Part shown: piece after piece, positions 21,613 to 43,458 of the stretch
How the letters are laid out: every line of letters begins with the position of its first letter
Position numbering within the stretch: position 1 is the first letter of the stretch
Origin: Paludibacteraceae bacterium
Lineage (GTDB): Bacteria > Bacteroidota > Bacteroidia > Bacteroidales > Paludibacteraceae
Reading direction: 5' to 3'
Length of the DNA: 64,000 nucleotides
Assembly (NCBI GenBank): GCA_905233935.1
Contig: CAJOFU010000026.1
Location: 13,113-77,112 of the forward strand
The notes under the pieces: model-generated
What the model saw: the letters and a program-made list of their open reading frames with translations, nothing else
Database searches by the model: none
What the model was told of the DNA's origin: nothing
Program-made: the position numbers and the translations under genes

Positions 21613-21776
21613 TTTTTATTTGGGTTTATTTCAGTTTGGAAGTTTGTCCCTTTAGGGTGAGGATTAGTGCGGTAAGGTGAACTGCAAATTTATTTGTGAG
21701 GGCATCTTATCGGACTAAGCCTCAATGTGCGATAGCACAACAAACTTACAAACTGTGTTTATTTATGTTTATTTTC
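21613..21776 (+). repeat. cloverleaf element copy A
   Basis: Terminal repeats TTTTATTTGGGTTTATT / GTTTATTTATGTTTATTTTC; P1 AGTTTGGAAGTTTGT (21633-21647) / ACAAACTTACAAACT (21740-21754); hairpin CCC-TTTA-GGG; P2 TGAGGATTAGT / ACTAAGCCTCA; hairpin TGTGC-GATA-GCACA. Confidence 0.85.
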
Positions 21777-21788
21777 CTAATAAAAACA

Positions 21789-22888
21789 TTACTTATATTC
21801 GTTCAATATCCTCAAAGCATTGTCGTGGTAGATCTTCTTTAGCACTTCGTCCGGGAGGTTGAAGCCTGACAATGCCCAATGGTAGTTGTACTCGGGTACG
21901 TAGAAGTGCTCGTCGTTGGTCTCGAGTACGCGGAAGATGCCGTGGTACATCTCCGGCTCAAAGCCGTTGTCCGTGCCGAAGAGTACGCGGTCTTGATACT
22001 TGATGAGGAACTCGCGTGTGGCGCGCGGCGTGTGTGCGCTCTCGGCTACGCGAGCAGATATATCGACATAAAGGTTAGGATACTTATCCAATAATGCGCC
22101 CAGACGCGGCCAATCGTGCGACATGTTCAGGTAGTGGCAAGCGATGAACAGCGTGCCGGGATTCTCGCGAACAGCGTTCTCGAAGGTAACCATCAATTGG
22201 TTGTAACCCAAGCAGTTGGTGGTGTCCACGTGCCAAGCTACGCCGTTAGGCAGACCGTCGTTCTTGTCGTCCATCGGCAGGTACATCCAGATAGGTTCGG
22301 CTATATGAATACTGATCGGCATCTCAGTTCGCCGGCTTTGCGGATAAGCGGTTGGATGCGCGGATCGTCAATATGGATATCTCTGCCTTCCACGGGACGG
22401 GCGTAGGTGTCACCTTCGCCTTTGTCTCCGAGTTCGCCGACACCTGTTGCGCCGAGTTCGTCATGATAGCGGGCTAACAGGTCGCAGGCTTTCTGAATGC
22501 CTTCCTCGCTCATGTCCGAGTAGTCAAAGCAGCACCAGAAACGGAAGCGGTCTTTGTAAGGCGCATAAAGCTCTACAACCTCTTCAAACGGGCGACCGAT
22601 CCATGAGCAGTGCATGATAGCGGTGTGCTCCACGCCTACGGCGTCCATCGTCTTAACCCACTGAGCGATCTGCTCGGCATTCTCCACATAATCATGGGAG
22701 TGCATATCAATAATCGGGAACTTACCTCGGGTAACTTCGGTCACAGGCAGGTTGTTCGCTACGTCAGGGAAGAAGTCACGTACAAGAACTTTGTCCAGCG
22801 GCGATGCCGACTCTTCGGCAGCTTTCGGAGCATTGCATGCCGCAAGTACCAGTGCGGCGGAAAACAGAAGGATTAGATGTTTTTTCAT
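21789..22888 (-). pseudogene. amidohydrolase-family metal-dependent hydrolase, frameshifted near 22310-22325
   Basis: ORFs 22301-22963 (IIDMHSHDYVENAEQIAQWVKTM...IQPLIRKAGELR) and 21789-22322 (MPISIHIAEPIWMYLPMDD...FGTDNGFEPEMY) join into one amidohydrolase in different frames. Confidence 0.8.
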
Positions 22889-22933
22889 GTTATTGCGGTT
22901 TATGCGCGTAGGCGCAACGTTTAAATTCGGCAC

Positions 22934-22965
22934 AAAGTTACAACTTTTTTTTGAATTTTCCAAAT
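22934..22965 (-). promoter_or_regulatory. Bacteroidetes-type promoter for the amidohydrolase
   Basis: Minus strand TTTG (22965-22962), 20-nt spacer, TAACTTTG (22941-22934). Confidence 0.7.
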
Positions 22966-23087
22966 TTATTATTATGCTCTAAAGCATATTTTCGAAACAT
23001 TTTTTTGTAAGGTATATATTTATAATATATTAGGGTGAAACAATTGTTCTTTCGGAATGTTTCGAAAAAAAGAATCGAAAGATTTTA

Positions 23088-23120
23088 TTTGCAAATGTCG
23101 AAATTTTTTCGTAACTTTGC
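23088..23120 (+). promoter_or_regulatory. Bacteroidetes-type promoter upstream of the deoR-like gene
   Basis: TTTG (23088-23091), 20-nt spacer, TAACTTTGC (23112-23120). Confidence 0.75.
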
Positions 23121-23220
23121 ACGCTGAATCATTCTGAGTGGTATCAGTCAGAGCATTACTACTTAGACGGTGACGGAACAATATATATGTTTTAGTCAAT
23201 GTATATATTTGGGCATTGAT

Positions 23221-23382
23221 ATTTTATTTATGTTTATTGCTGATGTGGTCTGTTACTCGAAGAGTTGTGGCTTAGACTGATTAGCCGCACGTCAAGCTCG
23301 CTTGTAAGGGCGGTTAAACAGACTAAGACACAAAGCACGATAGTGCAACAGACAACATCAGGGTTAATTTAGGTTTATTTTC
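23221..23382 (+). repeat. cloverleaf element copy B
   Basis: Terminal repeats ATTTTATTTATGTTTATT / GTTAATTTAGGTTTATTTTC; P1 CTGATGTGGTCTGTT (23240-23254) / AACAGACAACATCAG (23347-23361); hairpin ACTC-GAA-GAGT; P2 TGTGGCTTAGACTG / CAGACTAAGACACA; hairpin GCAC-GATA-GTGC. Confidence 0.85.
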
Positions 23383-23398
23383 AAACACTCAATATACC

Positions 23399-24175
23399 AT
23401 GAATGCATCATCGGCAAAGGAACGCAGGGCGTTGATTCTGCAACTGTTGGAACAGAAAGAGGAAGTGCAGGTGACTGAAATAAGTCGCCAGACAGGCATC
23501 TCCGAAGTAACTATCCGCAAGGATCTGACGATTCTCCAGAACCGTCATCTATTGCTCCGCACCCGCGGCGGCGCGATGCGCAAGCCAGTAGAGAACAACA
23601 ACGAGGAGACTGCCCTCGACCGCAAGCGGCTGTTCAACATCAAGGACAAACAGCGTATCGGCGAAGAGGCAGTGAAACTCATCAAGGACGGTGACTTCAT
23701 AATGCTTGACTCCGGCACAACCACGTTGGAGGTTGCACGCAATCTCGGGCAGTTCAATCACCTACGCATCCTCACTAACGCCATGAACATCGCTACAGAA
23801 CTGATGCAGTACAAACGCTTCGATGTTGTGTTGTTGGGCGGCAACGTGCGCATCAACAGCCACTCGATGGTGGGGCCTTTGGCACTCTCCGTACTCCGTA
23901 ACTTCCGCGGCTACAAACTCTTCCTCGGCGTGGATTCGTTCTCGATGGAGAACGGTGTATCAACGCCCGATTTGGAGGAAGCATTGCTCAACCAAGTTAT
24001 GGTGCAGCAGGCTGGAAAGGTCATTGCGGTGTTTGACTCATCGAAGTTCAACAAGCGCAGTTACGTGCATGTGGCGGATGTCAAGGAGTTGGACTACGTC
24101 ATTACGGATAGGGCTATACCCGTAGGCCTGCCGTCGAAACTCAAAGCTGCTGGCGTAGAGGTCAGGATGGTATAA
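23399..24175 (+). CDS. DeoR/GlpR-family transcriptional regulator
   Basis: RRALILQLLEQKEEVQVTEISRQTGISEVTIRKDLTILQNRHLLLRTRGGA; sugar-phosphate sensor domain. Confidence 0.92.
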   Translation: MNASSAKERRALILQLLEQKEEVQVTEISRQTGISEVTIRKDLTILQNRHLLLRTRGGAMRKPVENNNEETALDRKRLFNIKDKQRIGEEAVKLIKDGDFIMLDSGTTTLEVARNLGQFNHLRILTNAMNIATELMQYKRFDVVLLGGNVRINSHSMVGPLALSVLRNFRGYKLFLGVDSFSMENGVSTPDLEEALLNQVMVQQAGKVIAVFDSSKFNKRSYVHVADVKELDYVITDRAIPVGLPSKLKAAGVEVRMV

Positions 24176-24177
24176 GC

Positions 24178-24214
24178 AAAAAAGGTGGCACCTCAATGAG
24201 ATGCCACCTTTTTT
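24178..24214. terminator. bidirectional rho-independent terminator between convergent genes
   Basis: AAAAAAGGTGGCA CCTCAATGAGA TGCCACCTTTTTT. Confidence 0.92.
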
Positions 24215-24229
24215 AATTAGGGTTGCGGA

Positions 24230-27214
24230 TTACTCCATTTGTCCCAGAGCGTTATAACGAACGCCGTTGAGGATAATGTAGAGTTGTCCGTTCTCAATAA
24301 CCTTCACAGCCTTAACAGCAGCGTTGGTGTTCTCAAGACCTGTGCCATGGTTCGGAGCTACATAGATGCAGCCGTGCCACCAGTCTTCACCACCTTGGTT
24401 GTCAGGACGGAAGTAGATGGTCTTTGCGCCGGCGTGGTTAGCGTCAACTACATAGTTGTTGCTTTCGCCACCGGGGTACCAAGCGGTAATAACGTCGTTG
24501 AGGACATTGACTACTTGGATCTCGTCGTTTTCAGCCAGCGTTACGTTGAGCATGAACTCACTCGGGTTCTCAAGATTCGGTGAGAACTTGTTCTCAGCCT
24601 TCAAAGCTGCTACATCCCAACCGTCCACGCCATTGATACGACCGATGAGGTAGAATCCGTCAACCAAAGTGGGTTCGGGAGCCTCGGTCTCTTCGATAAC
24701 TACGTCGTAGATCTCAATGATATCACCTGCCTTAGCAAAGCCGAAGTCAAGAACCATGATGCCGTTACCACCGGCTACACCGGCAGCTTTCTTATCGAAT
24801 ACGAACTCAACACCAGCCTCCAAAGCAGCGTCAGCGACATAGATCATCTCTGCGTTGTCCTGATACTTGACGGTTACGTTCTGGAGAGCATTGTTAGACT
24901 TCATCTTGAGCGCTACGCGATAATACTTGCCAGCCTCAGCAATTGGACCGTGGTACTTAACCTGTGCACGCCACTGATCGTATTTGTCCACCTTGATGTA
25001 AACGGTAGCCTTCTTTGCATCTTCGTTCCACTCGAGATATGACTCTGTCTCGGCATTCCATGTGTCACCTGTAGCGAACCATGTCTCATACGGGTTGGTG
25101 TTGACATTTTCAGCAACATAGATGCAGCCTGCATGCCAGCCTTCGCCACCTTGATAGTCCGGACGGAAGTAGATGTCCTTGCTATCACCGGCGTGAGCGA
25201 AGTCAACTTTGTAGTTTTCACCCTCTCCCGGATACCAAGCACCCAGTGCGTTGTTAGCAACAGCTACAACTTTAAACTCGTCGTTCTCGGCAAGTGCAGT
25301 GGTGAGTACGTACTCTTTGTCGTTCTCCAGATTAACGGCGAACTTGTCAGCAGCAGTCAGGTTATGGATATCCCAACTGTTCATAGTACCGATGAGGTAG
25401 TAGCCGTCAACGAGGTCAATAGTCTTCGTTTGAGTTGTGTAGAAGTAAACGTTGTTGAGCCAGAATGTAAGGTTGGCTGCGTTGTCAATCTTAATCTGGT
25501 AAACATTGCTCCAGTTGGTAACGCCTTCGAATTTCGAAAGAGCGATATCAATGCTGTTCCACTGTTGTCCCTTGAGTTCAACGGTTACGCCAACTTCGGT
25601 GCCACCGTGGATAGGAACGACGCGGATAGAAGCGTCAGCGGCAATCCATGCATCGAGGTGGAGAGCCTCCATCTCCGAGCAGTCCATACCGGTGAACTCC
25701 ATTCCGAAGTAGCCCAAATTGGTGGTTGCGTACTTCTTACCAAACTCTTCTTGCTTATATTGCGTACCTGAACCCCACTCGCCGAAGTTGAAGTCAGCAC
25801 TATATTTAGCAGAGTAAACAGCCTTAACTTGATATCCTTGGAGAGTAGGCTCAGCGGGAGCAGCGTCCGGAGCGTCAAGAACAACAGGAGCAGATGGCTC
25901 GTATTTCGACCATTCGCCTGCAACACCCGGGTCACCCCAAACAGCGGACTCAGAAGTAATAGTGTACAAATCTTTCTCGTCAGTCGGGATTGTCAGATCA
26001 CCTGTCTTTGCGCCCCAGTCAGCAACGTTACCTTCGCCATTTACGCGGGTGAAGATACACATATGATAGGTGTTGATGTCGAGCTCTACCGACCAGAGGT
26101 CAGCTTCACCCTCAACCGGAGTCATGCGCTCACCCGGCCATGCAGCTTTAGCATTGCCACCGTCATCCCAAGTGTAAACACCAACAGCAGCGCCGTCAGC
26201 CTTCCACCAGGCTTTGTCCATCTTGCAGTAGATGGTCTTCATGAGCGGCTCAACCGGTTCAGCAGCTGGCCACCAGCGTGCGTCACCGAGGTTGCTGTTG
26301 TCAGCACCTGCAGCAATAGCGGGCGATGATGCATCAAGAGTGAAGTCGTTATTTGCTGCATCTTTGAATTTAGGATCAGCAGCAATCTCACCGGTAACGG
26401 TCGGACCGGAGGCGTGAGTCATGTTGAATACCAAGCAGTTGTTAATAGCAGCACCTGCATAGAGATTCGTTGCAGTAGCACCTTCTGTCGGGAAAGCGAA
26501 GATACTGTTGCTGATGACAACATCAGTCGATTGCTCAGAACGAACCGGACCATAGTTATAGAATGTGCAGTGGTCAATACGAATCTTGGCATCGGCTACT
26601 GCAGAACCGCCATTCTTAACATCAATAGCTCTGTTGGATGAGCCTGTGCCAGCAAACGTGGAGTGCTCAATGGCCAATTCAGCTAATGGTAACGGACTAC
26701 TACTACCCGTCTCAACATAAATAGCGGATCTTGCATTGTCATGGAAGAAGCATTTCCTGATTACTAATTCTTTCATGCAACGATCAGCACGTTGAGGATA
26801 GATGACATAACTCTTCCAGTTGCAAATTTCGCAACCAATCAGCGTCAATGTCTTGTTTTCGGAGTTGTCGTACGGACGAATGAAGTGGTCATTGGCACCT
26901 GCGCCCTCATTGTACAAACCGCCATCAAACTTAATACCAATGAAAGTTACTTGAGCCGAGTTCAACAACTTCATGTAGTAGTGCTGAGCAACAATCGGCG
27001 AAGCACCTTCAGCAGCTTGGATTGTGAGGCTCTTGTTCAGTTCCACAACTTCCGGCTCTTGGTAAACACCATCAGTCAGGATAAGTACATCACCTGCCGA
27101 TGCACTCTTTACAGCTTGCCTCAAGACATCAGAACCAGGTTCCAATGTCGTTTCCGCAGCATTTACTGCAACTGCAACAAGCATTGCAGCGAAAAAAGAT
27201 AAGATCTTTTTCAT
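24230..27214 (-). CDS. large secreted beta-helix protein with duplicated C-terminal domains and short C-terminal tail
   Basis: Signal peptide; LRQAVKSASAGDVLILTDGVYQEPEVVELNKSLTIQAAEGASP; two copies of VDG(Y/F)YLIG...W..H.GCIYVA domain; tail IENGQLYIILNGVRYNALGQME. Confidence 0.8.
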   Translation of the reverse strand: MKKILSFFAAMLVAVAVNAAETTLEPGSDVLRQAVKSASAGDVLILTDGVYQEPEVVELNKSLTIQAAEGASPIVAQHYYMKLLNSAQVTFIGIKFDGGLYNEGAGANDHFIRPYDNSENKTLTLIGCEICNWKSYVIYPQRADRCMKELVIRKCFFHDNARSAIYVETGSSSPLPLAELAIEHSTFAGTGSSNRAIDVKNGGSAVADAKIRIDHCTFYNYGPVRSEQSTDVVISNSIFAFPTEGATATNLYAGAAINNCLVFNMTHASGPTVTGEIAADPKFKDAANNDFTLDASSPAIAAGADNSNLGDARWWPAAEPVEPLMKTIYCKMDKAWWKADGAAVGVYTWDDGGNAKAAWPGERMTPVEGEADLWSVELDINTYHMCIFTRVNGEGNVADWGAKTGDLTIPTDEKDLYTITSESAVWGDPGVAGEWSKYEPSAPVVLDAPDAAPAEPTLQGYQVKAVYSAKYSADFNFGEWGSGTQYKQEEFGKKYATTNLGYFGMEFTGMDCSEMEALHLDAWIAADASIRVVPIHGGTEVGVTVELKGQQWNSIDIALSKFEGVTNWSNVYQIKIDNAANLTFWLNNVYFYTTQTKTIDLVDGYYLIGTMNSWDIHNLTAADKFAVNLENDKEYVLTTALAENDEFKVVAVANNALGAWYPGEGENYKVDFAHAGDSKDIYFRPDYQGGEGWHAGCIYVAENVNTNPYETWFATGDTWNAETESYLEWNEDAKKATVYIKVDKYDQWRAQVKYHGPIAEAGKYYRVALKMKSNNALQNVTVKYQDNAEMIYVADAALEAGVEFVFDKKAAGVAGGNGIMVLDFGFAKAGDIIEIYDVVIEETEAPEPTLVDGFYLIGRINGVDGWDVAALKAENKFSPNLENPSEFMLNVTLAENDEIQVVNVLNDVITAWYPGGESNNYVVDANHAGAKTIYFRPDNQGGEDWWHGCIYVAPNHGTGLENTNAAVKAVKVIENGQLYIILNGVRYNALGQME

Positions 27215-27284
27215 ACAAATTAGATTTGGTTAATAAATAATGGTTAACTTATAGTTGTTTTTCTTGGTTATTGTGGGCAAAACT

Positions 27285-27328
27285 CCGAGTCAATACCGAC
27301 TTAACTCCGATTTACCCCCGATTCTCTC
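27285..27328. repeat. 11-bp-period tandem repeat (4 units)
   Basis: ccgagtcaata ccgacttaact ccgatttaccc ccgattctctc. Confidence 0.75.
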
Positions 27329-27388
27329 GTAGGTTTTTGCATTGTTTCAACCAAAAGGGATTGAATGGCGCTATCGCAAAATCATCTA

Positions 27389-27420
27389 CAAAGTTACAAC
27401 TTTTTTTGCAAAGTTGCAAA
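27389..27420 (-). promoter_or_regulatory. Bacteroidetes-type promoter for the 24230-27214 gene
   Basis: Minus strand TTTG (27420-27417), 20-nt spacer, TAACTTTG (27396-27389). Confidence 0.65.
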
Positions 27421-27457
27421 TTTTGAGAGCAAAAAAGTACAAAATATTGCATTTTTT

Positions 27458-27495
27458 AATAGTTTCCCGCGAAATTGGCTTCGCGAGAAACTATT
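27458..27495. terminator. long hairpin, probable terminator
   Basis: AATAGTTTCCCGCGAA ATTGGC TTCGCGAGAAACTATT followed by TTTT. Confidence 0.7.
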
Positions 27496-27502
27496 TTTTC
27501 AT

Positions 27503-30500
27503 TTATTTCACGTTCTCACCGAGCACGTTGTAGATCTTGCCGTCACGACGAATGAAGAGTTGACCGTTGCTGATAAATTTGCAGCCGTCTGTGGTTACCG
27601 GTTGCGGAGCGAGGTCCTCATAACCTGTGGGTACGGTGTGCGGTTGTGTGCGTTTGACCTGCATGGTGTTGAGCAGCGTAGCGTCGCCGTTGCTGTCTGC
27701 CGTGTAGGAGTTGAACTCCAAGCAGTCGGACTTGACGGTAATCTTCGTGAAACAAGGTGCTTCGGGCTGGGCGAACATTCCGGTGAACAGATCAAAGTAG
27801 TTCTGTACTTTGTGTTTGCTGTAGTAACTTTGCAGTTTGTCGCGGTCGTAGGGGCTATATCGTTTGCGTCCGCAGGTAGCACCGATGAAGTACAGCGTGC
27901 CGTCGTCCACGGTATATGTGCCGCCTTTGTAGCCGGAGATGCTGACCTTGCTGTTCACCTCCACGGGTTCGCGGTCGGCGATAGCACTGAGAATAGGCGT
28001 ACGTGTATCGGGATTGACAGGTCCGATGACCTCGTAGGTGTGGTCATGACCTTGCAGCAGTAGATCGATCTCGCACTCTTTCATGACAGGCAACATACAG
28101 GCGCGGAAGGTTGGTCCTTCCTCATCCTTGCAGTGACCTGAACCGCAGAACACGTTCTTGTGCACAAGTCCGACGCGGTACTTCGTGTGCGGATACTTGG
28201 CTACCTGCTCCTTGAACCAGTAGCCTACATCGTTGGTCAGGTATTCCGATGTTTGCACACTGTAACTATAGTCTCCACGCCAGTAGTCTTGCTTCGAATA
28301 GACGAGGAAAAGTACATCGCCATATACGAAGCTGTAGGTTATACCTTCAAACTGCGGCTTGACGGCAGCCGTGATGTTGAAGGCGTTGTCGGTGTTGAAG
28401 TGGTAAGTGTAGTTGATGTTCGGGCTGTCATCGTGATTGCCGTCGGTAGGTACAACCGGCATAAGCATCAACACGGGTTTTAACGCCTCTTCGAACCAGC
28501 GTTCCCACTCCCACTCGCTGTTGGCAGCCGTGCCGGTATCGACAAAGTCACCCGGGAAGACGCAGAACCGTGCATCGGGGCAAGTCTTAGCCACCGCCTC
28601 GGCACACCAGCGCGCATAATCGACGTACTCCTGATCCTGAATATGGCTGTCGGACATATAGATGAAACTGTACTCACCCTGATCATTGTCCTGGGTGCGG
28701 AACTGTGCTATGTCGCTCCAGTGACCGTCATAACCGACGCGCCATGAATAGGTCGTACCGGGAGTGAGATTCTCGGCGAGAGCCTTGTGGCTGACGTAGG
28801 TGAACTTGGTGTTCGACGGGAGTTGTGCCGCTTCGATAATACCGGACTTCTGCGCCGCATAATGCAGCGGTTTGGTGGTGGTCGGTGTGGCTTCTACGGT
28901 CAGCACATCTGTGCCAGACGCAAAGTCTTCCGCCGTGGCGTCCGCCTTGGCTATCAATTGCACCTCACCGTCGGTGATGCCGCCGTTGGTGAACCAGCAG
29001 AATGCCATCCGTGTGAGCGGGTCGCCGTTGATGTTCGCGATCATATTGTAAGGTTCTTCCTTGCCGATAAGATTAGCAATTGCCTCGCGCATAGCTTGCA
29101 ACTTGGCGGTGATAATAGAATAGTCGCTACATTTGGCACTGTCAATGCGTGCCGCCTCTTTGGCTACGAGCAGCGGAATGAAACTCGGGACGGTATAGTC
29201 CTCTATACTGTAGAGTTCGTCTGCCTCCAACACTTCTTGAGGATAGTGATAGACGGGTTTGGGGGTAATCGTCAGTTGCGCCGAAGCCGAGTGACCGCCG
29301 TCAAGTGCTATGGCGTGAACGGTTGTTTGCCCCACGGCGAGCGCGGTGATGATGCCGTCGGCATCCACGCTGGCGATGGTCGGGTCGTCAATGCCCCATT
29401 GTAGCCGTTTGTCGGTTGCGTTACTCGGGGTGAACAACACATCGAATGCGCCGACCTGCTCCATCTCCACGTTGAGGTTCTGCGGCGTGAGCGTGATACT
29501 GGTGAGGCTGGCCGATTCTGTCGGCGGAGCTTGATCGTACGCTCCCGCTTTGCCAATCAGTGGCGAGCCGGCAGACAGACTGTAGTCGGCGCGGCGCATA
29601 GCGATCGTTTGCAGGCTGCTCTGCGGCAGTCCCGCAAAGTCGGTAGGGTTGACAAAATGCTGCATCCTTCATTGCAGCGATGCAGCCTTCCATCATCGGG
29701 TTGTTGTGTACGTATACACCGTCGAATCCGTCATTCGTATAGTTGCCGGACGAGTTGCTGGTTGCTGCGATGAAGTTCAACGGATCGGAGAGATCGGATG
29801 CCTGATTGCCCCAGAAGACCGAGTTAAAGACCTTCGCCACGGAGTGGATGCCGGCATAACCGCCTTCGCTGTAGTTGTTACAGACGGTGCAGTGGTCAAC
29901 CTTGCCTGACTTGTTGTATATACCTGCTGTGGCAGGCCATGTGGGGTCGTTGGCTTCGCAGTTATGGATGACGCAGCAGCTGACCGTACCGCCGTTGTTG
30001 TACACGCCGCCGTATTTGCCCGCGCAGCCTCGGATGATGCAATGCTCCACTGTGCAACCGCTGCTGACGCACACACCTCCGCCTTCCTTGGTAGAGGTGC
30101 AAAGCTCGATCAGGCAATTGCTGAGTGCGGCATCGGAGTGCATATACACGCCGCCGCCCGAACTGGTGCTCGTGCAGTTGCGGATCACACAATGGCGCAG
30201 CGTGATGTTGCCATAGATAGCAGCTCCGCCGCCGCTGTGTCCGTGCGAAGCGTTTTGCAGCACCAGCCCGTCCACCACGGTTGGGTTGGTGAACGCCTTG
30301 CTTGCCGCTATGAGCCTGTTGCCGACATTCTCGCCCTCAATGACAGTAGGGTAGCGGTCTATATCTTGTTCGCCGGTGGCAGGGTTATAGCTGCCAAAGA
30401 TGTGCTTGCCGTCAACAAGGGTGATAGCAGCAGGGTAGGAGCCTTGTGCAATAAAAACTGTATCCCCGACAGCGGCTGCGGAGAGTGCTTTCTTGACGGT

Positions 30501-30626
30501 TAGCTTGGCGGTTGCCCACGAGGTGCCATCCTTGCTGTCTGAACCGTCAGGGCGGACAAACATGTTGGCTGCGTTCGCCCCCGAAAGGGCGATTGCAGCC
30601 AACATGATAAGAAAACTACGTTTCAT
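27503..30626 (-). pseudogene. secreted beta-helix + Big2-like + metallophosphoesterase protein, frameshifted near 29650-29665
   Basis: N-terminal ORF 29421-30626 is coherent until ...AMKDAAF; ORF 27503-29665 resumes as HFVNPTDFAGLPQ, aligning with HFVDPTGFAGVPQ and NFRNPTGFVGLPK in paralogues; FPGDFVDTG, TDGNHDDS; tail ISNGQLFIRRDGKIYNVLGENVK. Confidence 0.82.
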
Positions 30627-30632
30627 AATCAG

Positions 30633-33869: not shown

Positions 33870-33940
33870 ATAATTAGAATTTGGGGTTAATAATATCTTC
33901 ACTTAGTAACTTTTTCAACTTTTAACTTTCGAACTTCTTT

Positions 33941-33960
33941 CAACTCTCAACTCTCAACTA
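33941..33960. repeat. 7-bp-period tandem repeat (caactct)
   Basis: caactct caactct caacta. Confidence 0.7.
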
Positions 33961-35696
33961 ATTCCCCGGCACTCCGTGCTCCTTCGTGCGAACCACTTTC
34001 ATTGTATTGAACAGCGTCACGTTACCTTGGTCGTCATCGGCGGTGTAGGAGTTGAACTCGATGCAGTCGTCCTTGACGGTGATCTTCGTGAAGCTCGGAG
34101 CCTCGGGCTGACCAAACATGCCGGTGAACAGGTCGAAGTAGTTCTTTACGTTGTGGTGATGGTTGTCAAAGATCACAGCAGGGTCTTCGCTATAGTCACT
34201 CTCCATCCGCTCACGGCTGTGCGGATAGTAACGCTTGTGACCGCAAGTAGCGCCAATGAAATAGAACGTACCGTCGTCGGTGCAGAACGTACCGCCCTTC
34301 TTACCGGTCATGTTCTTGTTTCTGTCAACCTCCACCTCTTCGACATCGCTGATGGCGCTCAATATCGGTGTGCAGTCGTCGGGATTAACCGGACCGATGA
34401 CCTCGTAGGTGTGGTCATGACCTTGTAGGGCGATGTCAATCTCGCACTCTTTCATGGTCGGCAACATGCAGTTGCGGAACAACGGTGGCTCATCGTCGGT
34501 CGAGTGATCCGAACCCGAGAACAGGTTGAAGTGCGCCAGCGAGATGCGGTACTTCGTGTCAGGATTCTCGGTCACCGACTTGCGAAACCAGGAACTTACG
34601 TGGTCGGTCAGGTAGGTTGACCAGGTTCTGCCGACCTGATCGTACGACTCGCGCCAGAAGTCTTGCATGGAGAAGACGAGGAATAGCACATCACCATATA
34701 CGAAGTTATACACGATTCCCTCAAACTGCGGTTTGTCGGTTACGGTGTAGTTGAACTCATTGTCGGTGTTGAAGTGGTAGGTGTAGTTCAGGTTCGGACT
34801 GTCGTCATGGTTACCATCGGTCGGCACAACCGTCATCGCATTCAGCATCGGACGCATCGAGCCTTCGAACCAGCGCTCCCATTGCCACTCCGAGTTGGGA
34901 ATACGCAGAACCGTGCCTCGGGCACAGTCTTCACGGCTGCAAGTGCACAGCGGCGCGCTTCTTTGATATATTGTGAGTTCATGATGTGGCTGTCGGTCAT
35001 GTACAGGAACGTGAACTCTCCTTGGTTGGCATCCTCGGTGCGGAAATGTCCGATCGGACTCCAGTGACCTTTGCCTTCGGTGTCATTGTAACCTACACGC
35101 CATGAATATTCCGTGCCGGGGGTAAGGTCGGTGGCTGTGGCTTTGTGGCTGATGTACTTGTACCGCTCGTTGCTCTCAATGCCCGAAGCGTTGACAATAT
35201 ATCTTGCCTTGCCGCTATAGCGCAGGCTCTTTGTCTGCTTAGCCGCAGCCTGAATAGTGGTAACACCACCTGCCTCAAAGTCCGCAGCCGTAGCATCCGC
35301 CTTGGCTATGATCTGTACCTCGCCGTCGGTTACGCCATCGTTAGTAAACCAGCAGAAGCCCATTCGGGTCTTCGGGTCGCCGTTGATAGTGGCAATCATG
35401 CAGTACGGCTCGGTCTTCGGCACGAGGGCTTTGATTGCCTGACGCATGGCCTCTATATTCTCTTTGGATGAGTCGTTGGAGCACGACTGAATAGCAATCT
35501 TCAGCATCGTGTGGCTGGGAACAGTCCAGTCAGCAATGGTGTAGATCGAGTCCGCCAACTCCCACTCGGTCTTCGGCACATATACCTCAGTCGAGTCTTT
35601 GGGATCTTTGGGATCCGGTTCAACTGCCGGGTCAGACTTACATGCTGCAAGCAGAACAATGCAGCACGTCATCAACAAGTAATAGATTTTTTTCAT
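33958..35696 (-). pseudogene. lipoprotein metallophosphoesterase paralogue inactivated by a deletion near 34900
   Basis: ORF 34842-35696 ends ARFCVFP|TRSGN...; ORF 33958-34857 frame extends upstream as NSEWQWERWFEGSMRPML. Paralogues read FCVFPGDFVDTGTDKNSEWEWERWF, so the GDFVDTG segment is missing. Confidence 0.82.
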
Positions 35697-35712
35697 TGTT
35701 GTTATTTGTTTT

Positions 35713-35750
35713 TCGATATATCGATATTTCGGTATTTCGATATATCGGGG
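35713..35750. repeat. 8-bp-period tandem repeat
   Basis: tcgatata tcgatatt tcggtatt tcgatata tcgggg. Confidence 0.8.
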
Positions 35751-35754
35751 TTAA

Positions 35755-38220
35755 TCATTTCACCACCGTCAATGTGTTGAACAATTCAATCTTCCCGTTC
35801 GGCAGCACCTTGAACGACTCCATTAGGATATCCTTTTTCCTTATTGTTACGCGCGTGTACGAAGGCGCGCCGGGCTGCCCGAACATGCCGGTGAACAGAT
35901 CGAAGTAGTTGTCGATCTTATGAATGTGCTTGCTGGCATCCATCTCTTCACGGCTGAGTGGTGTGTAACGCTTCGCGCCGCAGGTCGCACCGATGAAATA
36001 CAGCGTAGCGTCGCTGACATTGTACGTGCCGTCTTTCTTGCCCGTTGCATTCCTAACTGGATCCACCGCTACTGACTGCTGATTGCTGATGGCTGACAGC
36101 TGCGGCTTGCGCGAGTCAGGGTCAACAGGCCCGATAACCTCGTAGGTGTGATCGTGCCCTTGCAGCACGAGGTCAATCTTACAGTCTTTCATCACCGGCA
36201 GCAGCGTGGCACGCAACAGCGGCGTTTCTTTGTCTCTTTGATGATCCGATCCCGAGAACAGATTCTTGTGCACCAGCCCCACACGCCACTTCACCTCCGG
36301 CGTGGCGGCTACCTGACGGCGGAACCAGCCGCCCAAATCGCGCTCCAAGTACTCCGACGTACCGGCTTGGTAATCGTACTCCCCACGCCAGAAGTCTTGT
36401 TCGGAGAAAGCGATGAGTTGCATCGGCCCGTAGGTAAAACTATAGTTGATTCCCGCAAACTGCGGACGCACCTGTGTCGTCAGGTTGAACGTGGTATCCG
36501 TATTGAAGTGATAGGTGTAATTCAGCAGTGGGCTGTCGTCATGATTGCCGTCCGTTGGCACGAGCGGCATCCGCCTCAGCACGGGCTGCAACGCCTCTTC
36601 AAACCAGCGTTCCCACTCCCATTCGCTGTTCTTGTCTGTGCCGGTATCTACAAAATCCCCGGGGAACACGCAGAACCGTGCATCCCGTTCGTAACGAGCC
36701 ACCGCCTCGGCACACAGGCGCGCAGCGTCGATATATTCCTTGTTCTGTATATGACTGTCGGTCATATAGATGAAACTGAACTCCTCCTCATTCTCATCCG
36801 CCGTACGGAAATGTCCGACTTCACTCCAATGTTCCCCGTAACCTACGCGGTACGAATAGTCAGTGCCCGGTTGGAGGTTTTCCGCTACCGCCTTATGACT
36901 CACATAACGAAACGCCGTGCGTTTGTCCATCTTCGCCGCCTTCAGTATCCCCGAACTCGATATCGCATAATGCAAGGGCGGGGTAGTGGTGGCAGTCGCC
37001 GAAACGGTAAATGGCACTTGACCTTTTGCCCAAATCTGTACTTCACCTTGCTCTACACCTTCGTTCGTGAACCAACAAAATGCCATTCGTGTCTTCGGGT
37101 CACCGTTGATGTTTGCCACTATGCAGTACGGCTGCTCTTTCGGTTGCAACACTATCGTCTCATCCGTCAGGTGCGCCACAAAACTCGGTACACTATAGTT
37201 TGCTTTCGTGTATAGCGTATAGTCCTTGTTCGGGTTCACTCGTTTCGGTCCCTGAGGCATTGACGCGATACGATGAGTCGGTTTGCCGATGCGGTAGTCC
37301 GCTACCAGCATCATCGCTTCTTCCTCTGCAGCCTGAGGCACTCCGGCAAAACCCGTAGGATCGACAAAATGCGGACCATCCTCTGCCTCGTTGTCGGCAT
37401 TCAGCCAAGGCTTGTCAAAGAAGTGCTCCTCAAAGCCTTCGTCCGCACGGCTCGTGCCGGAGATGCTTTCGTCAGAAACGTAGTTCGTGGGGTCAACGAA
37501 TCCGTACTCGTTCACATTGCCCCACATCGTGCAGTCATAAACCGAACTCTCCGAGTGAATACCTCCATAGCGGTCGCCGTAGTTGTTCGCAATGACGCAC
37601 TCAATCAACGTACCGTCGAAGTTCGCCACACCACCTGCGTCCGGCCATTCGTGCCCCGTAGCAGTACAGTTGTGGATAACGCATTCCTCCAACCGTGCGC
37701 CGAGTGCTGAGGCTTCCGGCAGATCGCCCTTGATCAGCACTCCACCGCACAGCACGCCGCTGCAACCGCGCACTACGCAATGCCGCATCGTCACCTTCCC
37801 GCGCAACCACGCTGCTCCGCCACGCTCGTTATGTCGTGCGTTTTGCAGAACAAAATCCTCAATGCGCGTCGGCTGTTGGCAGTCGCGCTCGCAACTGATG
37901 AGCCGTGTACCGAATCCTTTTCCTTCCAGAATAGTCTTCCGACTGTGGTCGCAATCGCGTGCCAATGGTTGGTCGGCTACACAGCCGCCGATGATGGTCA
38001 CGCCGTCCTTGAGCGTGAACGCTTCGCTGAACGTTCCCGCCTCCACGAGCAGTGTATCGCCCGCGCGGCAATCATCCAGCGCAAGACGGATACTGCCTTG
38101 TGCCCGCTCCCAACACTTGCCGTCATCATCCAGCCGTCCTCCCACACGCACATACCACGTAGCCGCCGACGCTTGCAGCGTCAGTGCTACGAGTAGTGCT
38201 ATGTTCAAAAACCGTTGCAA
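35755..38220 (-). CDS. secreted beta-helix + metallophosphoesterase fusion protein
   Basis: Signal-like LQRFLNIALLVALTLQASAA, start possibly TTG at 38220 (the ORF to 38415 runs through element C); FPGDFVDTG, TDGNHDDS, GHDHTYEV. Confidence 0.8.
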   Translation of the reverse strand: MQRFLNIALLVALTLQASAATWYVRVGGRLDDDGKCWERAQGSIRLALDDCRAGDTLLVEAGTFSEAFTLKDGVTIIGGCVADQPLARDCDHSRKTILEGKGFGTRLISCERDCQQPTRIEDFVLQNARHNERGGAAWLRGKVTMRHCVVRGCSGVLCGGVLIKGDLPEASALGARLEECVIHNCTATGHEWPDAGGVANFDGTLIECVIANNYGDRYGGIHSESSVYDCTMWGNVNEYGFVDPTNYVSDESISGTSRADEGFEEHFFDKPWLNADNEAEDGPHFVDPTGFAGVPQAAEEEAMMLVADYRIGKPTHRIASMPQGPKRVNPNKDYTLYTKANYSVPSFVAHLTDETIVLQPKEQPYCIVANINGDPKTRMAFCWFTNEGVEQGEVQIWAKGQVPFTVSATATTTPPLHYAISSSGILKAAKMDKRTAFRYVSHKAVAENLQPGTDYSYRVGYGEHWSEVGHFRTADENEEEFSFIYMTDSHIQNKEYIDAARLCAEAVARYERDARFCVFPGDFVDTGTDKNSEWEWERWFEEALQPVLRRMPLVPTDGNHDDSPLLNYTYHFNTDTTFNLTTQVRPQFAGINYSFTYGPMQLIAFSEQDFWRGEYDYQAGTSEYLERDLGGWFRRQVAATPEVKWRVGLVHKNLFSGSDHQRDKETPLLRATLLPVMKDCKIDLVLQGHDHTYEVIGPVDPDSRKPQLSAISNQQSVAVDPVRNATGKKDGTYNVSDATLYFIGATCGAKRYTPLSREEMDASKHIHKIDNYFDLFTGMFGQPGAPSYTRVTIRKKDILMESFKVLPNGKIELFNTLTVVK

Positions 38221-38377
38221 TTTATTTATGTTTATCGCTTTTGAGTGTTTTGCTCGAAGAGTGTGATAATGGATGGTGAAAACTATCCGAAAGTCTACTT
38301 TCGAGGAGTTTTTAGCGGCCATTAGCACAAGTCGCGAAGCGACAAAACACTCAAAAGGGTTTATTTGGTTTATTTTC
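38219..38377 (+). repeat. cloverleaf element copy C
   Basis: Terminal repeats AATTTATTTATGTTTAT / GTTTATTTGGTTTATTTTC; perfect P1 TTTTGAGTGTTTTG (38239-38252) / CAAAACACTCAAAA (38343-38356); hairpin CTC-GAA-GAG; P2 TGTGATAATGG / CCATTAGCACA; hairpin GTCGC-GAA-GCGAC. Confidence 0.87.
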
Positions 38378-38386
38378 TTAAATAAA

Positions 38387-39331
38387 TCACTGCCAGCCGA
38401 AACGTTCGCGTCCAACGCGCTCTACATCCTCCCTGCTGGTGAAAGCAGTCGTACCGCCGGCAGCGGTCGTGTTCACCGCACCGGTCATATTGCCGTACTC
38501 CTGGCAGCGCGCCAGATCGTCGCCTGCCGCCAGCCTTGTGATGAATCCCGAGTTAAACGAGTCACCGGCGCCGATGCAATCGACTACGTTCTTGTTCAGC
38601 AGCGCCTCTTGCTTGCGGTCGGGTTGACCCTTGCGCATCAGGATGCTGCCCTTGCTGCCGCACTTGATGACGGCTGCATTCACGAACGGGCGAATCTTCT
38701 CCAACGCCTCGTCAAGGTTAGCGCTGCGTGTCAGGAACTTCAGCTCGGTCTCGTTCGGCATGAATACCGTTACGAGCGGCAGAATCTCCTCAAGATTGAT
38801 GTCCCACTGCTCGGTCGGATCCCACTGGCTGTCCAGAGAAGTGGTTACGCCATTCTGCTTGCAGAGTTCAAGGATCTTCTTTAGGTCACGTTTCACACCG
38901 CTTTGCATGAAAATGCTCGAGATATGAATATGTTTAGCCTGTTTGAATACCTCGGGATCAATATCGTCCAGCGACATATAGTCCATCGCACCCTGATAGG
39001 TCAGGTTTGCGCGGTCCTCGTCGTAACTCATGCAGATCGTTGCGCCCGTAGCGTATTTGTTCTGACGGATCAGGAATCGGGTATCCACACCTTTCTTTTG
39101 CAGGCTGGTCTCTACCAGGTCACCGAAACTGTCATCACCGATCATGCCACAGAAAGCAACTTTCGCACCGATTGCCGCAGCATTGGCGGCAAAGATTGCC
39201 GTCGAACTGCCTAAGGTCAGCGTCATCTGTTTGGCAAACTTCTCTTTGCCTACTTCCGGTTCGCCTTCAATCTGATTCAGTATCAGATCCACATTCAACT
39301 CGCCTAATGCAATAATATCAAATGTTTTCAT
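38387..39331 (-). CDS. PfkB-family carbohydrate kinase
   Basis: MKTFDIIALGELNVDLIL; DCIGAGDSFNSGFI. Confidence 0.92.
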   Translation of the reverse strand: MKTFDIIALGELNVDLILNQIEGEPEVGKEKFAKQMTLTLGSSTAIFAANAAAIGAKVAFCGMIGDDSFGDLVETSLQKKGVDTRFLIRQNKYATGATICMSYDEDRANLTYQGAMDYMSLDDIDPEVFKQAKHIHISSIFMQSGVKRDLKKILELCKQNGVTTSLDSQWDPTEQWDINLEEILPLVTVFMPNETELKFLTRSANLDEALEKIRPFVNAAVIKCGSKGSILMRKGQPDRKQEALLNKNVVDCIGAGDSFNSGFITRLAAGDDLARCQEYGNMTGAVNTTAAGGTTAFTSREDVERVGRERFGWQ

Positions 39332-39372
39332 GATTGTTTTTAACTTTACACTTTTAACTATTAGACTTCTTT

Positions 39373-39400
39373 CAACTCTCAACTGTCAACTCTCAACTAT
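39373..39400. repeat. 7-bp-period tandem repeat (4 units)
   Basis: caactct caactgt caactct caactat. Confidence 0.85.
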
Positions 39401-40764
39401 CACAGGAACTTCTTCCTGAACGCCTCAATCATCGAGAACCAGTTTTTCGGATAGTCGTGTGTCATATTCGGGTAGAAATGGTACTCGCTCTGAGGGTTGT
39501 TAATCAAGTTATACGGAGCAATATTCGTGTGCGGCGGACATGTGCCGTCCTTTAGACCGCTCGTCGCCAGCACAGCGCAAGAGATGCGCGTCGCCAGGTT
39601 CTTGGTGTCGTAGTACGACAGAAATGCGTACATCTCGTCGGTACTCATGCCGGCTTTCTTGGCTGCGGTCTTGGCAGTCGAACCCGGCCAATCCACAATC
39701 TTGAAGTAGTCGGGAAAATCGCCTAAGAACGCTACGTTCGGTGTAATCGCCGTAAACGGTATATCGCTCAATCCGGCTGCTGCATAACACAGCGCACCGC
39801 CTTGGCTCGATCCCTCGGCAAACAGTTTGGTCATATCGCTCGTCTCGCGCGTTGCCATAAACCGCACCGCTTGCACGGCGTCCATAAACGCTCCGCGGTA
39901 ATAGTAACTGTCCTTATCGCCGAAATGGTACGCAAACCAATCCCCGTAGATATTGATGCAGTCTTCGTCAATGCCCGGGTTCTTGGTCGAGGCTGGTCGG
40001 TTGTTCAAGTACTGACCGCGATGGGACAAGTAGAACTCCGCGTACTTCGAGTTGCCGCCTGACGGACATTCGCACTTTGCCTTCGTGCCTTGTGTGTCGT
40101 AGCCGTAGTAGTGAATCAGTACGGGATGTTTCTCGCCGTCCGTCGGCTCGCAGTAATACCCGCGAATCTTCACCGGCTCACCTTCCAAACCGTCCGGCAC
40201 AGAATACATCTCCACCAGATACACCTTACGCGCCGACGAACTCTTATCCTCAATCTCCGTCAGCACAGCGTTCATATCCACTGCCGCCAACTGATCCTTC
40301 GCCGTCTGCCAGTATTCGGTGTAATCCGACTGCATATCCGGCGCCGAAACAATGTCAAACGGATCAACGCCGAAATTGAACATCCTAACGTTCTTGCCCT
40401 TCACAAAGCAGACAGCGCGGTAGAACCCGGGATTCATATTCTCCTTGAGCGTCACCACGTAGTTCGTTTCCTTGTTACCGGCAACCGTCATCGTATCCGT
40501 CAGCTCCAGCGTCATGTCCTTCTTGTCCGCCGTGATGAGCACCTTAATCGGCAATTGCGCTCTTTCAGCCTCGGCATTCACCACCGGCACATTGAAACTC
40601 GGCTTACCGCTCCAGATCAGGTCTTCCGGCTCTTGCACATATTCAGGATTCGGATCAACCGGCTCAACTGGATCAACCGGCTCTTTCGGCTTCTCGCAAC
40701 CGCACGCACCCAACAGCACGGCGGTTACAAGAGCCCACAGAAATATCGAATACTTCTTTGACAT
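39400..40764 (-). CDS. acetyl xylan esterase/cephalosporin-C deacetylase-like lipoprotein
   Basis: Lipobox LLGACGC; DAVQAVRFMATRE, FAEGSSQGGALCYAAAGL (GxSxG), SGLKDGTCPPHTNIAPYN. Confidence 0.82.
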   Translation of the reverse strand: MSKKYSIFLWALVTAVLLGACGCEKPKEPVDPVEPVDPNPEYVQEPEDLIWSGKPSFNVPVVNAEAERAQLPIKVLITADKKDMTLELTDTMTVAGNKETNYVVTLKENMNPGFYRAVCFVKGKNVRMFNFGVDPFDIVSAPDMQSDYTEYWQTAKDQLAAVDMNAVLTEIEDKSSSARKVYLVEMYSVPDGLEGEPVKIRGYYCEPTDGEKHPVLIHYYGYDTQGTKAKCECPSGGNSKYAEFYLSHRGQYLNNRPASTKNPGIDEDCINIYGDWFAYHFGDKDSYYYRGAFMDAVQAVRFMATRETSDMTKLFAEGSSQGGALCYAAAGLSDIPFTAITPNVAFLGDFPDYFKIVDWPGSTAKTAAKKAGMSTDEMYAFLSYYDTKNLATRISCAVLATSGLKDGTCPPHTNIAPYNLINNPQSEYHFYPNMTHDYPKNWFSMIEAFRKKFL

Positions 40765-40798
40765 ATTGCTTTCGTTTGTTTAGTTCTCGGCGCTTCAA

Positions 40799-42028
40799 CT
40801 ACTTCAAATAGTCATTCAGGTTGACAATATTAAATGCGTTGTAGTACTTGTCCATGTTGTGCTCAATGCGCATCAGCACAATCTCCTCGGCCTGAATACC
40901 CAGACGCTCCAGGTTGTCATACAACATCTGACGGGCAACCAGTGCTTCCGGTTTCTGCCAGATATAGCGGCAACCGGTCTTCACGAGCCAGAGCTGACGA
41001 TCCTCTGTGCAGTCCTTCAGGTCTTTGCCTACCTCCTCGCCGTGCAGCCATTTTTTCCAACGGTTGCTCTCATATACGCATTGCCACAGCACTTGTGTCA
41101 TGTTACTCAACTGTGCGATCTTGCCTTCGGCGTGCAGTTTCTTTTCTACTTCTTCCAGCTCAGCAAGTGCGTCGTACTCGTTCATCGTGAACTCCGGACC
41201 AACGTTTGCTGCACCCATTCCCGCCTTCGGGTAATCCTCGGGGTTCTCTACATCGTCAGAATAATGTCCTTTGATATAGCTGCCGTACGGACGAACCTTT
41301 GCTGTCAGGTTTCTTGCTACCTCCGGATCAAAGAATGTCGTGTGCAGGTCTGTACCCACCTTACCTACGATAAAGCAAGGCCAAATATCATCCAGACCAA
41401 CCTCGTGCAAACCGGCTTTCAGTCCCTCAAGGAACGTGTCGAACGTCTTCTCGTCAGCCAGACCTCCATGCACTTCCTCTGTACCTACCTCATAACTGAT
41501 AGGAGCGATGCCGTGTGCCTTGCGGAAATCCTCGGCGTGCTTGATCAACTCAACCGTACGTTTAACCACTACGTGGATATCAATGATCTCGCCTTTCGGA
41601 AGGAAGATATCCACCGTAGGATCCACGTGAATCAGGTCATAACCTGCAAGGATCGCTGCCTCGTAACTCTTCTTTACGCCGTTCATTGCGCGCTCGGTGT
41701 CCCAGCGCTCAACGTTCTGTTTGTCTTTCAGCCACGGACCGCCATGGTCGATTGCCACTACGTACGGACCTGTGTAGTTCACTGCCGCTGCTTCGCGGGC
41801 AAGGATCTTCGTGAATACCTCTTGTGTCATGCCGGTGTAACCGCCGTCGCAGTCCACTTGGTTGAGCGTCGTCGCGAAGTAGATCGGCGAATTGTTACGT
41901 TTCGCTGCGCGGAACGATGCCTTGATTACTGACAATGAGTTCGGGCACGCTGCAAACAACGTCATCGGAACTCCGGTTGCTTTCTTTCTCTCCTCCATTA
42001 CGCGGAGAATGTTCTCAGTCTTTGCCAT
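40799..42028 (-). CDS. tagatose-bisphosphate aldolase GatZ/KbaZ-like subunit
   Basis: GVPMTLFAACPNSLSVIKASFRAAKRNNSPIYFATTLNQVDCDGGYTGMTQ; 409 aa. Confidence 0.85.
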   Translation of the reverse strand: MAKTENILRVMEERKKATGVPMTLFAACPNSLSVIKASFRAAKRNNSPIYFATTLNQVDCDGGYTGMTQEVFTKILAREAAAVNYTGPYVVAIDHGGPWLKDKQNVERWDTERAMNGVKKSYEAAILAGYDLIHVDPTVDIFLPKGEIIDIHVVVKRTVELIKHAEDFRKAHGIAPISYEVGTEEVHGGLADEKTFDTFLEGLKAGLHEVGLDDIWPCFIVGKVGTDLHTTFFDPEVARNLTAKVRPYGSYIKGHYSDDVENPEDYPKAGMGAANVGPEFTMNEYDALAELEEVEKKLHAEGKIAQLSNMTQVLWQCVYESNRWKKWLHGEEVGKDLKDCTEDRQLWLVKTGCRYIWQKPEALVARQMLYDNLERLGIQAEEIVLMRIEHNMDKYYNAFNIVNLNDYLK

Positions 42029-42042
42029 ATTCTTTGATTTTT

Positions 42043-42116
42043 TTATTCCTTGTTATGTATCGACCAATCTTGGGCGATCTTATTCCTTGTTATGTATCGA
42101 CCAATCTTGGGCGATC
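42043..42116 (+). repeat. 37-bp tandem duplication, each copy carrying an ATCGACC...GGGCGAT hairpin
   Basis: ttattccttgttatgtatcgaccaatcttgggcgatc x2 (42043-42079, 42080-42116). Confidence 0.95.
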
Positions 42117-43236
42117 ACTCGTATATCGTAACTCCCTCAACCACACGGTGTATATTCCCGCTTACACTCGGCGCATCCGGATTCAGCCCGTGAGCCAGCG
42201 AAGCATAGTATCCTAACAACTGCCCAACCAGCACGTAAGGCACTATTCCGTAGAAGTCATTCTCCTTCGGCCCGAACGGCATCCTTACCACCAAATCCGC
42301 CTTCACCTCAGGCAGCTCAGGCGCCTTGCCGGCAATCACGATGATCTGTGCCACAGGCTTGTTGTTTGCATCCACCTGCTTAACCAGATCGCGCTCGTAA
42401 CGTTGTACCTCTTCCTGTTCCGTCATCAGATATACGACAATCGACTTGCTGTTCACCACAGCTTTCGGACCGTGACGGAAGCCCAAGAAACTGTCGAACT
42501 TGCAAACCACTGCACCATCTGTCAACTCTTGCAACTTCAGGTGGCACTCCTCAGCAATGCCCTTCAGCGCACCCGATCCGAGGAACACACCCCGCTCAAA
42601 CGGACGCGAAGCAATCTCTTTCAACTTCTCCTCGTACTCTGCAATCACCGCCTCAGCGTTCTTTGCAGCTTTCTCGATCTGCTCTACGTCTTGCTCCAGC
42701 GTGTCAATATGCCCGAGCATCAGGCAGGTCAGCAGCATCGTCGAGAACGAACTCGTCATTGCCAGGCTCTTGTCGTCCGTCTCTTCCGGCAACAGCAGCG
42801 ACAGCACATTCTCGCGCCCTGCGGCTTGCATCGCTAACTTGCCGTTCTTGTTGCAGGTGATATACACATGTGCCACGTTCTTGCACAGTTTGTTTGCCAG
42901 GTTCACGGCTGCCACACTCTCGGGACTGTTACCCGAACGGGCAAAACTTACCAGCAGCAGCGGACGCTCAGCATCCAACAGGTACTTTGCGTGTGTCACG
43001 ATGTCCGTTGTCGGCACGCTGCGCACGTTCCGCCACAGCCCGCGCATCACAGGCTGCAATGCATCGCCGATAAACGCCGACGTGCCCGCACCGGTCAGCA
43101 CGATGTCCGTGTCAGGGGTCAGATACTTGTGCATAAATGCGCGAACCTCTTCCTTCGCTGCCAGCAGCGCCTGTAACTCCTTGCGCCACATTGCCGGCTG
43201 CTGATGAATCTCGTTAAATGTAAATTGCGTGTTCAT
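42115..43236 (-). CDS. SIS-domain sugar isomerase (AgaS-like)
   Basis: DIVLTGAGTSAFIGDALQP, LLVSFARSGNSPESVAAV, FLGSGALKGIAEECHLKLQELTDG; start set to MNTQFTF. Confidence 0.85.
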   Translation of the reverse strand: MNTQFTFNEIHQQPAMWRKELQALLAAKEEVRAFMHKYLTPDTDIVLTGAGTSAFIGDALQPVMRGLWRNVRSVPTTDIVTHAKYLLDAERPLLLVSFARSGNSPESVAAVNLANKLCKNVAHVYITCNKNGKLAMQAAGRENVLSLLLPEETDDKSLAMTSSFSTMLLTCLMLGHIDTLEQDVEQIEKAAKNAEAVIAEYEEKLKEIASRPFERGVFLGSGALKGIAEECHLKLQELTDGAVVCKFDSFLGFRHGPKAVVNSKSIVVYLMTEQEEVQRYERDLVKQVDANNKPVAQIIVIAGKAPELPEVKADLVVRMPFGPKENDFYGIVPYVLVGQLLGYYASLAHGLNPDAPSVSGNIHRVVEGVTIYE

Positions 43237-43300
43237 GTTTGTAAGGTATTTAGTATTATTTTGTATCCGCAGTATTGTTGAGTCTATTGTTTGTGTCCGC

Positions 43301-43458
43301 GGTTTATTTGGGTTTATTGCTGTTTGTTTGCGTCCACGCCAGTGGTGAGGATTTGGCTGTTCGGGGCTCTGCAAACATGTTTGCGAGAGCACCGGAGCGG
43401 GCAAAGACTCATAGCGCGAAGCGCAGCAAACAAATAGTGTTTATATAGGTTTATTTTC
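43301..43458 (+). repeat. cloverleaf element copy D
   Basis: Terminal repeats GGTTTATTTGGGTTTATT / GTTTATATAGGTTTATTTTC; P1 CTGTTTGTTTGC (43320-43331) / GCAAACAAATAG (43426-43437); hairpin CCAC-GCCA-GTGG; P2 TGAGGATTTG / CAAAGACTCA (tandem GA/AG); hairpin GCGC-GAA-GCGC. Confidence 0.85.

Follow-up and report, generated by a model that had tools for sequence, protein, structure and literature searches.

Why should four short stretches between the genes of one bacterial genome share a fold and differ in sequence? The question arises in a 64,000-nucleotide stretch of a Paludibacteraceae bacterium (GCA_905233935.1, contig CAJOFU010000026.1, positions 13,113 to 77,112; hereafter the window), in which a first-pass annotation had described four intergenic elements, here copies A to D. 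Each was said to consist of a tandem box pair, an outer stem P1, a small hairpin, a long arm (P2–P3), a second small hairpin, the returning arm P1′ and a second box pair. Our analysis supports that account overall and shows that the fold of one DNA strand, not the sequence, is what evolution preserves in this dispersed repeat. All four copies sit where they had been placed, with the parts described, and each folds alone as a cloverleaf when treated as DNA (z-scores from 200 dinucleotide shuffles per copy):

21613-21776, + strand: copy A, whole element, identified from sequence; fold z −9.9, model match 131 bits
Copy A, 5′ half: left boxes 21613-21630; P1 5′ arm 21632-21647; small hairpin 1 21648-21657
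Copy A, 3′ half: P2–P3 arm 21658-21724; small hairpin 2 21726-21739; P1′ 21740-21755; right boxes 21757-21776
23221-23382, + strand: copy B, whole element, identified from sequence; fold z −7.0, 153 bits
Copy B, 5′ half: left boxes 23221-23238; P1 5′ arm 23240-23254; hairpin 1 23255-23265
Copy B, 3′ half: P2–P3 arm 23266-23332; hairpin 2 23335-23346; P1′ 23347-23361; right boxes 23363-23382
38219-38377, + strand: copy C, whole element, identified from sequence; fold z −8.9, 102 bits
Copy C, 5′ half: left boxes 38219-38236; P1 5′ arm 38238-38252; hairpin 1 38253-38261
Copy C, 3′ half: P2–P3 arm 38262-38329; hairpin 2 38332-38342; P1′ 38343-38357; right boxes 38359-38377
43301-43458, + strand: copy D, whole element, identified from sequence; fold z −6.7, 115 bits
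Copy D, 5′ half: left boxes 43301-43318; P1 5′ arm 43319-43331; hairpin 1 43334-43345
Copy D, 3′ half: P2–P3 arm 43346-43411; hairpin 2 43414-43424; P1′ 43426-43438; right boxes 43439-43458

The four copies are of different subtypes, and the box pattern occurs eight times in the window against an expectation of 0.29. The element is about 161 bp long, and its covariance model of 161 positions has an outer stem with three branches. For the tests of fold and strand we used 53 copies below 85% identity, 40 of which took the shape [[][][]] as their own minimum-energy fold, compared with 8.8% of dinucleotide shuffles. The claim that the stems change sequence yet stay paired was borne out over 128 copies: 88.7% of the alignment cells were paired, all 51 base pairs showed double compensatory changes, with 2003 cells changed on both sides, and the covariation score was 0.75, against 0.21 for shuffled data and 0.07-0.11 with the partners slid. 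As this alignment was itself fitted to the structure, the single-sequence folds provide the cleaner, independent evidence.

The interior is variable. In the end boxes, GTTTAT-N4-GTTTAT (two GTTTAT at a spacing of 10 bp), conservation is 95-100% at most positions. The feet of the element read GTTTATYG / GGTTTAT, and the terminal boxes are direct repeats that stay unpaired in the fold. The distance from left to right box clusters at 121-126 nt and the total length is tightly held, while the long P2–P3 arm contains recurrent 1x1 purine–purine mismatches, accounting for 173 of the 182 single mismatches. Stem pairing could also be kept by intrastrand templated repair, or quasi-palindrome correction, and not by selection on structure; repair of this kind is known to render two arms complementary, and double changes would result. 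The process would, however, not be expected to spare fixed purine–purine mismatches, one of which, at model positions 49/107, persists in 73% of the copies, or to hold the length so tightly, nor would a symmetrical process be expected to make wobbles and mismatch types differ between the strands. We consider this explanation scarcely credible.

The written strand outfolded its complement in 52 of the 53 copies under RNA parameters and in all 53 under DNA parameters, and G–T pairs numbered 170 on the written strand versus 56 when the complement was folded. The constraint is strand-specific, which alone is compatible with either RNA or single-stranded DNA.

To see how far the family extends, we built covariance models from 12 copies (R1) and from 128 copies (R2), with E-values that are rough, and applied them to the source genome, a 2.2-Mb draft of 76.6% completeness, and to other genomes, all of them drafts. 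In the source genome, a box-pattern scan and then R1 revealed many more copies than the four. R1 gave 47 matches there, about a dozen being antisense shadows of the same near-palindromic elements, and we put the number of copies there at roughly 35-40, some of them partial. The same model found the element in 12 of 24 further genomes of the genus, at most 29 matches in any one of them, and in none of 16 genomes of other families; copy number within the genus varies patchily from 0 to about 40. R2 recovered the element in 67 of 300 family genomes, every one in a single genus of 33. Among 393 genomes of the order it had no carrier outside that genus, and the 391 other Bacteroidales genomes sampled were all without it, although so few candidates per genome are scored in searches of this breadth that low-copy genomes may escape them. 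A two-box pattern scan of the GTDB contigs returned 56 stretches, all from metagenome-assembled genomes of gut or rumen Bacteroidales, many labelled Paludibacteraceae, with no viral contig among them, and the phage and plasmid collections contained no match to the element. Rfam gave no match at gathering score in the window and nothing credible at an E-value of 1 in six loci, and ARAGORN found no tRNA or tmRNA in the window.

The first-pass annotation had proposed the covariance-model scan and the Rfam comparison, and its view of a structured element family outside the known classes has held: there are more copies in the genome and its relatives, covariation is strong and no described family matches. 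No earlier description of the element was found in the open-access literature. The four copies are members of a family new to that literature and found in one gut/rumen Bacteroidales genus; a catalogue of well over 100 copies from this genus, with their coordinates and a covariance model, now exists.

The copies lie between genes: 1 of 116 falls inside an open reading frame (ORF) of at least 200 aa, compared with 72% of random points. Their orientation to the flanking genes is balanced (co/co 31, anti/anti 31, divergent 21 and convergent 16), the flanks contain no common promoter or other motif, and the neighbours are ordinary, unrelated core or housekeeping genes in both orientations, with the copies irregularly spaced. 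Copy B is located between a predicted Bacteroidetes-type promoter (approximately 23085-23125) and a deoR-type gene starting at 23399. It is also present in the deoR-type leader of genome G001 (97% identical), while that of G007 (82%) is short and lacks the element. The intergenic sites, the random gene orientation, the ordinary neighbours and the absence from the G007 leader favor an element inserting between genes over one serving them.

These data bear on the possibility that the element is a structured RNA acting in cis on the neighbouring mRNAs, as a leader, a 3′ untranslated region or a stability element. Such a role would fit the better folding of the written strand, its tolerance of G–T pairs, and the position of copy B and several others directly upstream of start codons. 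With the orientation random, about half of the copies would nevertheless be antisense in the mRNA, the flanking genes are unrelated core genes whose orthologues occur in relatives without the element, and Rfam offers no match; we therefore regard a cis-acting RNA as unlikely. A leader RNA in particular was rejected for its lack of a fixed orientation to the gene. The annotation had offered three options, a non-autonomous mobile element, a regulatory cruciform or a structured RNA. The first is favored by our results, whereas random gene orientation, the lack of a conserved promoter flank and the patchy distribution speak against a cis-regulatory leader or an RNA gene. The recognised form is probably single-stranded DNA rather than RNA.

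We then considered the signs of movement. The element boundaries are sharp, and near-identical copies occur within unrelated flanks, including 95% pairs within G002 and a 92.5% identical counterpart of copy C at an unrelated locus of another species; copies A and D are also found in G001, a genome 96-97% identical to the source genome. Around ftsY, inverted pairs in the source genome contrast with spacers of 40 and 102 bp in G007, and G046 holds an empty counterpart of one site on contig C39. Among 84 solo copies, the flanks showed no excess identity indicative of a target site duplication (k = 2-8, any offset); the right flank is TTAAAA-like and the left flank ends in A. Close pairs in opposite orientation had their left ends facing each other in 12 of 13 cases (−+, tail-to-tail). 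Several genomes contain scars, consisting of two or three boxes and no cloverleaf, as expected from deletion between the end repeats. The inverted pairs and the scars, like the strand specificity and the shared polarity described below, are additions to the first-pass annotation.

Successive solo copies on one contig had the same orientation in 31 cases and the opposite in 2 (p = 1.3e-7), and at gaps of about 5-103 kb the orientation was shared by 11 of 12. A second genome set gave 11 same and 1 opposite, counted by eye among the matches listed, bringing the two sets together to 42 of 45. Local duplication does not explain the shared orientation, as neighbouring copies often belong to different subtypes. 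A leading/lagging call from raw GC skew on long contigs was dropped as too weak and replaced by fourfold-site skew. Along the element direction, the latter was negative in 41 of 55 regions (p = 4e-4), with values of −0.123 for co-directional and −0.050 for opposite genes; as the sign is the same for both gene orientations, transcription is not the source of the signal. In both contigs with a solo copy and ribosomal L2, the element opposes the L2 operon. The leading strand is G-rich in most bacteria, and if this holds here, the folding strand lies on the leading-strand template, an assignment that we make tentatively. The shared orientation suggests a selfish element tied to DNA replication.

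Orientation shared over up to 103 kb and related to GC skew could also mark a polar chromosomal signal kept for the host, such as a fork trap, a segregation site or a lagging-strand initiation site. The element is, however, missing in every sampled relative and in roughly half of the searched genomes of the genus itself, and it forms opposite-orientation pairs and clusters a few hundred bp apart and turns over rapidly, making a host signal very improbable.

With a probability of roughly 60%, we interpret the family as dispersed selfish DNA, a non-autonomous element of about 161 bp that is recognised as a folded single strand and coupled to replication. The near-invariant direct-repeat boxes mark both ends, and the written strand folds into a cloverleaf of P1, two small side hairpins and one long mismatched arm. 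We infer that movement is enzymatic: a putative enzyme, encoded by the host or by an element, would read the folded single strand and the boxes and insert the element at intergenic sites resembling A|TTAAAA, where the target is not duplicated. Its action would be linked to the replication fork, so that the orientation would follow the direction of replication. Copies would disappear when the DNA from one end box to the other is deleted, and two or three boxes would stay behind as a scar. The polarity might arise as copies insert, or later, if those with the folding strand on the lagging template are lost preferentially; such orientation-dependent loss is made plausible by the scars and pairs.

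Several observations weigh against this interpretation. No mobilising enzyme was found in these incomplete genomes. The Y1 transposase (PF01797) was absent from G000, G001, G002 and G006, whose assemblies are 76-90% complete, and none of its 14 matches in 10 other genus genomes was accompanied by the element within the loci examined. Reverse transcriptase (PF00078) was absent from most of the element-rich genomes, which are likewise incomplete, and the loci examined contained no gene-bearing version of the element. We rejected both enzymes as the mover, each being absent from most of the element-rich, incomplete assemblies and not linked to the element; apparent gene-bearing or oversize versions sharing P1 arms were only cross-matches between neighbouring normal copies. 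The search for empty sites, also proposed in the first-pass annotation, yielded diverged ones from relatives of 79-84% identity and no clean near-identical empty/filled pair: joined-flank composite searches between G000 and G001 returned shared sites, missing contigs or different filler, and in one slot a relative of the 95% class holds different filler, not an empty site. Regarding polarity, one rplM-rpsI operon is co-oriented with nearby copies, raw GC skew is weak in the genus and the leading/lagging assignment thus uncertain, and some scars are in the majority orientation.

The last point also bears on a survivorship explanation, in which an element of any mobile kind inserts in either orientation, often as inverted pairs, and copies with the well-folding strand on the lagging template are lost by slippage between the end boxes. 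Direct-repeat boxes around a strong hairpin are a classic slippage substrate, slippage explains the variable outcome of the scars, with two or three boxes, better than site-specific recombination does, and the folding strand is apparently on the leading template. Furthermore, each pair contains one minority-orientation copy, and several collapsed copies, namely L350 (17913), L348 (7567), L235 (1481) and the remnant left of L031, are in the minority orientation. The scars L233, L239 and L019 are in the majority orientation, however, and the scars are too few for a test. Survivorship is a possibility that we take seriously while thinking it less likely than not.

Among known systems, the element behaves most like REP/REPIN, yet it is not a member, as its size, fold, foot and RAYT association all fail. 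REPs are single hairpins of 21-65 nt with a GT[AG]G foot, usually with a tnpA-REP gene nearby, and are thought to move via single-stranded DNA (PMC6006769). The element resembles REP/BIME/REPIN sequences in being short, intergenic, multicopy and often arranged in inverted pairs, with imperfect, mismatched hairpins, a structure more conserved than the sequence and a distribution restricted to a genus or species. In contrast to REPs, it folds as a cloverleaf of 161 nt, has tandem GTTTAT boxes on either side and lacks the GT[AG]G foot, and no Y1 gene was found in the genomes with the most copies. Integron attC sites share the conserved ends, the variable interior, the extrahelical or mismatched bases, the importance of the replication strand and recognition of a single-strand fold, the last being probable for the element. 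The attC end boxes (RYYYAAC...GTTRRRY) are inverted and mutually paired, however, whereas those of the element are direct repeats outside the fold. An attC identity, like REP/REPIN membership proposed for comparison in the annotation, failed on the inverted, paired end boxes, and was also rejected because there are no gene cassettes, with housekeeping genes between irregularly spaced copies.

Like miniature inverted-repeat transposable elements (MITEs) and PATEs, such as BrickBuilt of Porphyromonas gingivalis (PMC4596501) and the IS605-derived PATEs, the element is non-autonomous, dispersed, noncoding and intergenic. Unlike in MITEs, the solo form lacks a terminal inverted repeat and a target duplication, and only the inverted pairs have inverted outer ends; a MITE of a DDE transposase was rejected on the direct-repeat ends and the missing target duplication. 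The element further differs from MITEs and PATEs in conserving a multibranched fold, and no parent insertion sequence was found in the loci examined. Replication-linked orientation without target duplication is shared with IS200/IS605-derived PATEs, but insertion of the folding strand as the lagging template would predict the strand opposite to the apparent one. The ERIC/RU-type repeats of enterobacteria are sequence-conserved families, while the element diverges strongly with its fold kept and shows strand and replication polarity. ERIC/RU-type repeats, of about 127-168 bp (PMC2759123), are otherwise similar in size, intergenic, structured and orphans of a known transposase. We tentatively raise the possibility, doubtful at present, of a distinct class of bacterial mobile DNA that is fold-recognised and replication-polarised, has direct-repeat ends and uses an enzyme outside the Y1, DDE, integron-integrase and reverse-transcriptase routes.

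The copies can be counted, and in them cruciform-type structure is linked to strand identity, to the direction of replication and to the loss of elements. If a fold-reading enzyme were found, it would represent a new route of DNA mobility; if the polarity reflects survivorship, orientation-dependent hairpin instability can be assayed in nature through this family. The element also accounts for breaks in the assemblies of rumen Paludibacteraceae genomes and for the variability of their intergenic regions. Both ends of contig C30 in G000 fall inside copies (L012 and L349), a sign that the element breaks short-read assemblies; as the two ends are of different subtypes, we rejected the contig as a circular element.

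We also noted other repeats in and around the copies. At L191-L196 and L303 (G000, G001), close paralogues or relatives differ in the repetitive filler that occupies a given intergenic slot, e.g., TATTAAAGACAATTAAAGACTATT, and it seems that several repeat families replace one another in the intergenic spacers of the genus. Two copies in G000 (L016, 1322-1520, contig C39, and L027, 1320-1520, contig C28) have almost identical 40-bp hairpin inserts (AAACGGGGTCCCCACAAATAACATGCAGTGGGGTGTCTAT) at one and the same position of P1′, and a related hairpin is found at a different place in copy L148 of G001. In G002 (contig C4, L315, 9300-9620), three tandem units, each about 40 bp long (GTTTATCTTGGTTTATTTTC + TTTTTTATGGGACACCAGTG), come after a copy, and the motif TTTTTTATGGGACAC also follows the boxes in L012, L019, L025, L235 and L270. 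One side of several inverted pairs (L093, L041, L241 and L256) shares a further 20-35 bp of flank (CGAACATTGAGGTATTTA beside GAAAATAAAC), and the paired form may thus be a larger unit than two elements. Finally, a frameshift divides the gene between copies A and B (21789-22963) into two ORFs that overlap, whereas its counterpart in the near-identical G001 is one intact ORF of 366 aa, indicating a recent lesion or a sequencing error in the window.

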